Assembly: GCA_947169235.1 (NCBI GenBank)
Contig: CAMVOY010000002.1
Location: 19,542 to 83,541 of the forward strand
Direction of reading: 5' to 3'
DNA: 64,000 bases
From: an uncultured Lachnospiraceae bacterium
GTDB lineage: Bacteria; Bacillota; Clostridia; Lachnospirales; Lachnospiraceae
Position numbers and translations under genes: made by a program. Positions 17,434-38,987 of the stretch are shown in pieces; the first letter of the stretch is position 1, and each line of letters opens with the position of its first letter. A model generated the notes under the pieces. The model ran no database searches. It was not told the origin of the DNA and saw nothing but the letters and a program-made list of their open reading frames with translations.

Positions 17434-17453
17434 AAAAAATATATTTTTATCAA

Positions 17454-17482
17454 TTGACAAAACAAGGCAAGATGAGTATAAT
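17454..17482 (+). promoter_or_regulatory. divergent promoter for SH3-domain gene
   Basis: TTGACA, 17 bp, TATAAT (17477-17482). Confidence 0.8.
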
Positions 17483-17510
17483 ATTTAAGGTATGGTTAAA
17501 AGCTCGAAGA

Positions 17511-17660
17511 GCTCGTCGTGGAGGAATAGTGTGAAAAATCACATTGATATGCTGATTTTTCACACGGCTGTTTGTGACGAGCCCAAACAGCCTTTGATCC
17601 GACATGCGTGCCGAAAGCACGCATGCGGTGACTCGCACAAGTGCTCGTCGTGGAGGAATA
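17511..17660 (+). promoter_or_regulatory. structured 5'UTR with duplicated SD region and three perfect hairpins
   Basis: Direct repeat GCTCGTCGTGGAGGAATA at 17511-17528 and 17643-17660; stems GTGTGAAAAATCA/TGATTTTTCACAC, GGCTGTTTG/CAAACAGCC, CATGCGTGC/GCACGCATG. Confidence 0.75.
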
Positions 17661-17662
17661 AT

Positions 17663-18418
17663 ATGAGCAAGAAAAAGTACGGATTTTTCGGAAGAATAAA
17701 AAGATCGGATAATCCGGCATTCGAAATAGGGATGTTTTCAATAAGTGTAGCTATATCTCTGGCCGTTCTGGTAGGAGTTGTATTAGTTGCATGGTTCTAT
17801 ATCAAAGGTCAGACCAATCGTTATACTGAGGAAGAGGTCAATGCAGGAACCGTTACCCAGGCTGCCGTGGAGGTTGATAAAACTGAGGAGGAGCCTGTAC
17901 AGACGGTGGATCCCAATCAGGAAATGATCGAGAATGATGATCTTATCGATTATGAAGACGAGTTAAAAACAGCTGAGTATGCGTATACTACCAGTGATGT
18001 CAACCTTCGTTCGGAGCCCAGCCTGACTGCTTTGGTTGTTATGAAGGTTCCTTTTGGAGCCTCAGTAGATATGATCAGCTATGATGGCGGAGATTGGGCG
18101 AAGGTTTCATATCAGGGACAGGAAGGCTATATCAATGCAATGTATCTTTCTGTTGATAAGCCGGTTCCGATCGAAGAACAGCCTGCTATCGAGGTTACAC
18201 CGAAGCCTGTAAAGACGCCTAAGCCGACCAAGACACCTGAGGAGACAGTAGCTCCTGATGAAACAGAAGAGCCGGATTATCCTGAGGTGACCGAAGAGCC
18301 AACGGAGCCTACTGAGGCTCCGCCGGAGAAGACCAAAAAGCCTGCTCCTACTGAGGCTCCACCGGAGGAGACTGAACCACCGGCAGAAACAGAAGCGCCG
18401 GCGGCACCGGAAGAGTAA
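17663..18418 (+). CDS. membrane-anchored SH3 domain protein with P/T/E-rich tail
   Basis: TM near N-terminus; SH3_3-like VNLRSEPSLTALVVMKVPFGASVDMISYDGGDWAKVSYQGQEGYI; low-complexity PTEAPPEETEPP tail. Confidence 0.8.
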   Translation: MSKKKYGFFGRIKRSDNPAFEIGMFSISVAISLAVLVGVVLVAWFYIKGQTNRYTEEEVNAGTVTQAAVEVDKTEEEPVQTVDPNQEMIENDDLIDYEDELKTAEYAYTTSDVNLRSEPSLTALVVMKVPFGASVDMISYDGGDWAKVSYQGQEGYINAMYLSVDKPVPIEEQPAIEVTPKPVKTPKPTKTPEETVAPDETEEPDYPEVTEEPTEPTEAPPEKTKKPAPTEAPPEETEPPAETEAPAAPEE

Positions 18419-33474: not shown

Positions 33475-33612
33475 GCGTGATGAAAAATGTGTATCACTGT
33501 TCGGGATGTGTCTTGTACGTCGTTGCGTAGCGTGCGTTTTATGCACGCATGCAACGTGACGTACAAGAAAAAAGCGCAAGCGTGCCCGAACAGATACACG
33601 CTTTCATCACGC
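33475..33612 (+). repeat. Intergenic nested-hairpin element, copy B
   Basis: GCGTGATGAAA/TTTCATCACGC; GTGTATC/GATACAC; TGTTCGGG/CCCGAACA; loop ATGTGTC; TTGTACGTC/GACGTACAA; GTTGC/GCAAC; GCGTGC/GCACGC; 3' loop GAAAAAAGCGCAAGCGTG. Confidence 0.9.
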
Positions 33613-38847: not shown

Positions 38848-38987
38848 GGCGTGATGAAGAATGTGTATCACTGTGATGGATGTCTCTTGAACGTCGGTGC
38901 GTAGCGTGCGTATTTTGCACGCATGCACCGCTACGTTCAAGAAAAAAGCGCAAGCGTGCCATCACAGATACACGTATTCATCACGCC
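38848..38987 (+). repeat. Intergenic nested-hairpin element, copy D
   Basis: GGCGTGATGAA/TTCATCACGCC; GTGTATC/GATACAC; TGTGATGG/CCATCACA; loop ATGTCTC; TTGAACGT/ACGTTCAA; GGTGC/GCACC; GCGTGC/GCACGC; GAAAAAAGCGCAAGCGTG. Confidence 0.9.

Follow-up and report, generated by a model that had tools for sequence, protein, structure and literature searches.

A mobile, sense-oriented repeat of Lachnospirales between Shine-Dalgarno sequence and start codon, possibly a translation switch

The DNA region in front of the gene for a membrane-anchored SH3-domain protein of an uncultured Lachnospiraceae bacterium carries one copy of a mobile element of Lachnospirales, which is inserted in sense orientation between a Shine-Dalgarno (SD) sequence and the start codon. 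Our best explanation is that of a small mobile element which integrates at this point and may be able to act as a translation switch, and we assign this whole reading a probability of roughly 0.55. The element belongs to a family whose copies share the insertion position, the sense orientation, a doubled SD where relatives have empty sites, a covarying fold and a strong conservation in place. It is a non-autonomous, small mobile repeat (MITE/BOX/RPE-like) with an unusual target specificity, and a two-state control of translation by such an element is plausible.

In the window, by which we mean the whole analyzed stretch of 64,000 nt, the 18-mer GCTCGTCGTGGAGGAATA is present exactly at 17511-17528 and 17643-17660, as an earlier note on this DNA had claimed, and there is no third site with up to three mismatches (0.06 expected). 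Between both copies lie the three perfect stems that had been described, namely hairpin 1 (17529-17541/17553-17565), hairpin 2 (17566-17574/17584-17592), and hairpin 3 (17603-17611/17617-17625), whereby the latter is longer than had been assumed, being extended by CCG/CGG around a bulged A (Table 1). Also as described, the loop of hairpin 2 contains the heptamer GACGAGC, which is exactly complementary to GCTCGTC in front of the right SD. The predicted RNA fold of the window copy has a free energy of -67.5 kcal/mol (z = -6.0), which was reached by 0 of 200 shuffled sequences. The downstream gene product harbors a bacterial SH3 domain (PF08239, 3.1e-12). The longest open reading frame (17492-18418, 308 aa) begins 5' of the element and crosses it in frame with the SH3 gene. 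An automatic annotation could thus wrongly add about 57 residues to the SH3 protein, as the leader frame of the element can be mistaken for an N-terminal extension.

Table 1. Positions of the element copy, of neighboring genes and of a second repeat in the window
Feature	Start	End	Strand	Remark
Divergent lexA	16720	17334	-	Anchor for locating orthologous empty sites
Left copy of the 18-mer	17511	17528	+	Tail-like GCTCGTCGT, original SD GGAGG (17520-17524) and spacer ending in TA
Hairpin 1	17529	17565	+	Start of the mobile element (GTGTGAAAAATC...GATTTTTCACAC)
GTG	17531	17533	+	Possible start of a leader ORF, which in this copy shares the frame of the SH3 gene
Hairpin 2	17566	17592	+	Loop carries the putative pseudoknot strand
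Pseudoknot 5' strand	17576	17582	+	Putative; GACGAGC in the loop of hairpin 2
Hairpin 3	17599	17628	+	Contains a bulged A; longer by 22 nt in some copies, missing from minimal forms
Pseudoknot 3' strand (tail)	17643	17649	+	Putative; GCTCGTC, 2 nt 5' of the right SD
Right SD	17652	17660	+	GGAGGAATA, TA end, start codon 2 nt further
SH3-domain protein gene	17663	18418	+	Downstream gene, membrane-anchored product
Second repeat, copy	33475	33612		
Second repeat, copy	38849	38986		
Second repeat, partial copy	7026	7128		
Second repeat, inverted copy	38539	38601		

The region had been read either as a regulatory 5'UTR of the SH3 gene or as an insertion. A genome search with 17480-17670 as a query yielded full or partial copies on many contigs, so that the insert 17529-17660 is dispersed, and relatives keep the SH3 gene without it, which bears out the insertion alternative. 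Although local hairpins and complementarity do exist, a 5'UTR that is private to the SH3 gene is refuted and practically without any probability, as the closest relatives have the gene but lack the element and the same element stands before unrelated genes. The covariance model found 16 matches, the window copy included, in the genome of the window (13 under stricter filters) and matches in 32 of the 39 genomes of the genus, with up to 51 per genome. Outside the genus the distribution in other Lachnospirales is patchy, and across the order only 10 of 245 sampled genomes, from 7 of 114 genera, gave matches under the stricter filters. With a type-B copy as a query, 21 of 41 relatives showed matches, and a scan for hairpin 1 with one genome per species yielded at least 114 stretches, nearly all of them labelled as Lachnospiraceae or related Clostridiales. 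The element is usually about 130 letters long (range about 95-175 bp), whereby hairpin 1 is common to all subtypes, whereas hairpin 3 and the tail differ. Neither a scan of the IMG/VR viral contigs for the hairpin-1 pattern nor a search of the PLSDB plasmids gave a match, and thus the element appears not to travel on the phages or plasmids of these collections. An Rfam scan of the window detected only a tRNA, and a permissive scan of 17450-17720 only a chance match; a search of the literature outside subscription papers retrieved no earlier description of the element. Remnants are also found at SDs, one consisting of the head only (L015) and two of the tail only (L014, L020). In several subtypes (L269, L273, L276, L284, L285) the loop of hairpin 1 contains a 21-nt hairpin, CCAAAGAACTAAAGTTCTTGG, that looks like an insertion.

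All examined copies are in sense orientation and lie between an SD and a start codon, from which usually 2 nt separate them. Among 108 unique copies, 100 precede, in sense, an ORF of 60 aa or more that has an SD and a start codon (ATG in 96 cases), most of these lying 133-165 nt from the element start; in most of the remaining eight, SD and ATG are likewise present and the ORF is short or truncated. An SD-like tetramer occurs within 14 nt upstream of 132 of 141 copies (background 22%), and the two bases preceding the element are T in 118 and A in 134 of the 141 copies. TA is present at the left flank in about 80% of cases vs 12% at positions -4/-3 of control genes. Thus, the GTG of the element stands where the original ATG stood relative to the left SD. 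The invariance of TGAAAAA stems in part from the search pattern itself and was not counted as evidence. The downstream genes, which include tsf, prmA, ruvA, hypD, ABC transporter genes, and the SH3 gene, have no common theme.

Joined flanks of ten copies from the window's genome were compared with six relatives. This search, which the earlier note had suggested, revealed clean empty sites with the gene kept. At five loci (filled/empty: L006/L195, L003/L202, L010/L207, L012/L201, window/L166), the empty site has a single SD, whereas the filled site has two. The empty relative of the window locus (G011) reads GCCCTGACGGAGGAACA and then ATATG. At L006, the empty relative has AATAAAGTGGAGGATTA directly followed by ATATGCCGG; in the filled site the element follows this SD, and ATATGCCGG is preceded by another ATGGAGGATTA. 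At L010, the native SD is the left one, GGAGGCTA, in contrast to AAAGGATTA on the right, and at L058, L079, L105, and L109 an identical non-standard spacer is found on both sides of the element. Left and right SD segments within a copy are more similar to each other (6.15) than permuted pairs (5.31, sd 0.125). This mixture of native and non-native SDs would fit a recombination over short SD-TA homology or a duplication of variable extent. A simple 18-bp target duplication, as had been considered, does not hold for the window copy, where only the 9 bp of GGAGGAATA represent SD and spacer. The segment GCTCGTCGT, which precedes the left SD, agrees with the tail of a type-A copy, and the empty relative has AGCCCTGAC instead. 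Since tandems of a tail and an element also occur at other loci (L003, L007, L094, L122, L150), GCTCGTCGT is most likely the remnant of an earlier copy. One gene carries different element types in two species (L271 in G017, L277 in G004), which represents either a replacement or independent insertions at one SD.

The strong covariation argues for a fold of three hairpins and a pseudoknot, in which the loop of hairpin 2 would pair with the stretch just 5' of the right SD. In 107 aligned matches, 97.6% of the cells are paired and double changes occur in 28 of 36 pairs, whereby these absolute numbers lean towards the model to which the alignment was fitted. The covariation score was 0.318 compared to 0.083 for shuffled and at most 0.070 for slid controls. 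Helix 1 is paired in 99.6% of the cells and has eight pairs with double changes, helix 2 has eight covarying pairs, and in helix 3 all 12 of 12 pairs covary; hairpin 1 varies with compensation, for example GTATG..CATAC and GATTG..CAATC. The pseudoknot helix scored 19.9 vs 16.5 for permuted pairs (sd 0.32) and 11.4 for shuffled loops, and loop and tail sequences change together by subtype (CCGGAGCGT/ACGCTCCGG, GACGAGCA/TGCTCGTC, TTTCTGAGCGA/TCGCTCAGAAA, TGTCAGAGC/GCTCTGACA). Thus, the interaction of loop and tail is a conserved property of the whole family. By inspection, forms without hairpin 3 (L278, L288, L299) also seem to retain it. The earlier note had named two observations that would refute a loop-SD interaction, relatives keeping the gene without the complementarity and a dispersed insert with unrelated loops. 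The gene is indeed kept without the insert and the insert is dispersed, but the loops elsewhere are not unrelated, as they change with the tails.

It could also be that the element is a purely selfish, MITE-like repeat, which is folded as DNA for its mobilization, makes its insertion harmless by its own SD, and regulates nothing. We consider this possible, though doubtful. It would agree with the patchy distribution, with near-identical copies at unrelated genes, with tandem and truncated copies, with the lack of a functional theme downstream, and with insertion at TA, a trait of many bacterial MITEs (PMC2229807). In addition, the helix mismatches G-T and A-C are about equally rare (34 vs 28), whereas a constraint on a sense-strand RNA should favor G-U, although as a test of the strand this comparison was uninformative. 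However, resident copies, loops included, show about 13-fold fewer changes than the adjoining sequence. At five loci where two species have a copy in common, 4 of 695 element positions are changed compared to 268 of 3594 flank positions (Fisher p = 2e-16 for the pooled loci; the test takes a single pair at each locus, largely from two groups of species, and disregards linkage). The 149 nt of the copies L248, L249, and L250 from three species show no difference, compared to 5-11% in their flanks. For these types and those of L270/L273, the genomes in question showed no similar donor copy, their other copies being of different types, and this speaks against recent copying from a sister copy. A role as translation switch, our preferred reading, would explain why resident copies are conserved.

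According to this preferred reading, the right SD would serve the translation of the gene, and a leader could start from the left SD together with the GTG of the element. The tail 5' of the right SD would have two partners in the mRNA, either the loop of hairpin 2, which leaves the SD free, or the SD itself, which is then covered. In the main subtypes the tail contains CTCC or CTC and is able to pair with GGAG of the hairpin-2 loop or of the SD, and thus the pseudoknot would free the SD. In predictions limited to nested folding, the right SD is less often unpaired than control SDs (0.34 vs 0.45, p = 0.004), and its main partner is its own tail (0.34 vs 0.10 in controls, p = 1.6e-8). In type A, to which the window copy belongs, the pairing of tail and SD is short (CTC/GAG) and the anti-SD pairing weak, so that the switch is less certain for this copy. 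Ribosomes on the leader, a protein, or temperature are candidates for driving the switch. Riboswitches with an SD-proximal pseudoknot, such as preQ1 and SAM-II, have a pseudoknot strand that adjoins the SD and may mask it. The element likewise has a conserved secondary structure adjoining the SD, a putative pseudoknot strand next to it, and a possible SD masking, but it is mobile, its loops vary by copy, and it presents neither a ligand or pathway theme nor an Rfam match.

The downstream gene might instead be controlled by a leader-peptide attenuator with an ORF from GTG 17531, which we regard as improbable. Positions 3-5 of the element are GTG, TTG, or ATG in 141 of 141 copies (whereby TG was required by the search pattern), 51 of 86 copies have an open frame 1, the leader frame, while stops always interrupt frames 2 and 3, and in eight copies the leader ends at the ATG, with its TGA overlapping ATGA. 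However, the frame is closed in the other 35 of the 86 copies, the peptide is not conserved, some copies such as L292 read GTG TAA at once, and an open frame is partly a by-product of the conserved hairpin 1. Searches of the leader peptide against Pfam and NCBIfam yielded no family.

Left flanks look native and right SDs look either native or donor-derived, which suggests that integration proceeds in the manner of site-specific recombination or of transposition over short SD-TA homology. The target would consist of an SD, a short spacer ending in TA, the cut, two arbitrary bases, and ATG. Y1 transposase (PF01797) was absent from the copy-rich, mostly draft assemblies G000 (the genome of the window), G002, G023, and G022 and present in the copy-free G054; reverse transcriptase (PF00078, RVT_1) was absent from G000 (16 matches) and G023 (51 matches), again among mostly draft assemblies. 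These absences are only suggestive. None of the examined hairpin-1 copies contains a protein gene, and no long autonomous version with the same ends was seen among the loci read. An RNA-mediated insertion, in which a reverse transcriptase copies a retro-element or intron-like RNA into the SD in a SINE-like manner and the insert is perhaps spliced out of the mRNA, would suit the structured RNA, the 5' GTGTG, which is similar to the 5' consensus of group II introns, and the tail-only remnants, which look like 5' truncations. It is nevertheless unlikely given the lack of RVT_1 in both genomes (although metagenome-assembled genomes can miss multicopy genes); moreover, no group II domains V/VI were recognized and the right SD makes splicing needless. 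Extending the switch reading, one may tentatively picture a mobile RNA switch that recognizes the SD/start context, inserts there together with an SD and a pseudoknot of its own, and is kept by selection, whereby many unrelated genes of a genome would come under a common translational control.

The element behaves like a MITE or a BOX element and is not filed under any named family. Bacterial MITEs and other small repeats (Correia/NEMIS, ERIC, RUP) have been reviewed (PMC2229807). Like MITEs, which are about 100-200 bp long, non-coding, highly base-paired, and dispersed, with TA at the ends and direct repeats of the target, the element is short (<200 bp), non-autonomous, and dispersed and has TA at both ends, with a longer SD duplication in many copies. 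It differs from them in its single orientation, the insertion at a fixed point, namely between SD and start codon, and the strong conservation in place, and by inspection the left end TAGTGTGAAAAATC does not match the complement of the right end TAATCTCCATTCCG as terminal inverted repeats. BOX elements of Streptococcus pneumoniae are similarly modular, hairpin-rich, transcribed, small, and mobile and have no known role, but they also occur in pseudogenes and at gene 3' ends (PMC3049150), whereas the element targets the junction of SD and start codon and carries an SD. Rickettsia palindromic elements have a similar size, are palindromic, and are tolerated in translated regions (PMC2229807); they lie in frame within genes, while the element precedes the start codon and has a non-conserved leader frame. 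The TAACTGA repeats of Beggiatoaceae are likewise oriented, lie directly upstream of many unrelated start codons, and are suspected of translational control, but they are arrays of a heptamer that extend over the expected ribosome-binding site, mostly without an SD, and contain neither hairpins nor a pseudoknot (PMC4679880).

A second dispersed intergenic repeat of about 140 bp with a long hairpin (GCGTGATGAARAATGTGTATC...GATACACG..TTCATCACGC) is unrelated to the element. To this repeat belong the copies B and D, to which the earlier note had linked GCACGCATGC from the third stem; the two families have only this one palindromic 10-mer in common (17617-17626, 33543-33552, 38917-38926), which looks like chance.

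Small mobile repeats are usually viewed as scattered debris. This element lands at one functional point of the gene in one orientation, also in front of housekeeping genes such as tsf, ruvA, and prmA, and afterwards is more conserved than the coding sequence beside it. If the switch is not real, it would still be a DNA element with an unusual choice of target. If the switch is real, transposition would spread translational control over a genome.
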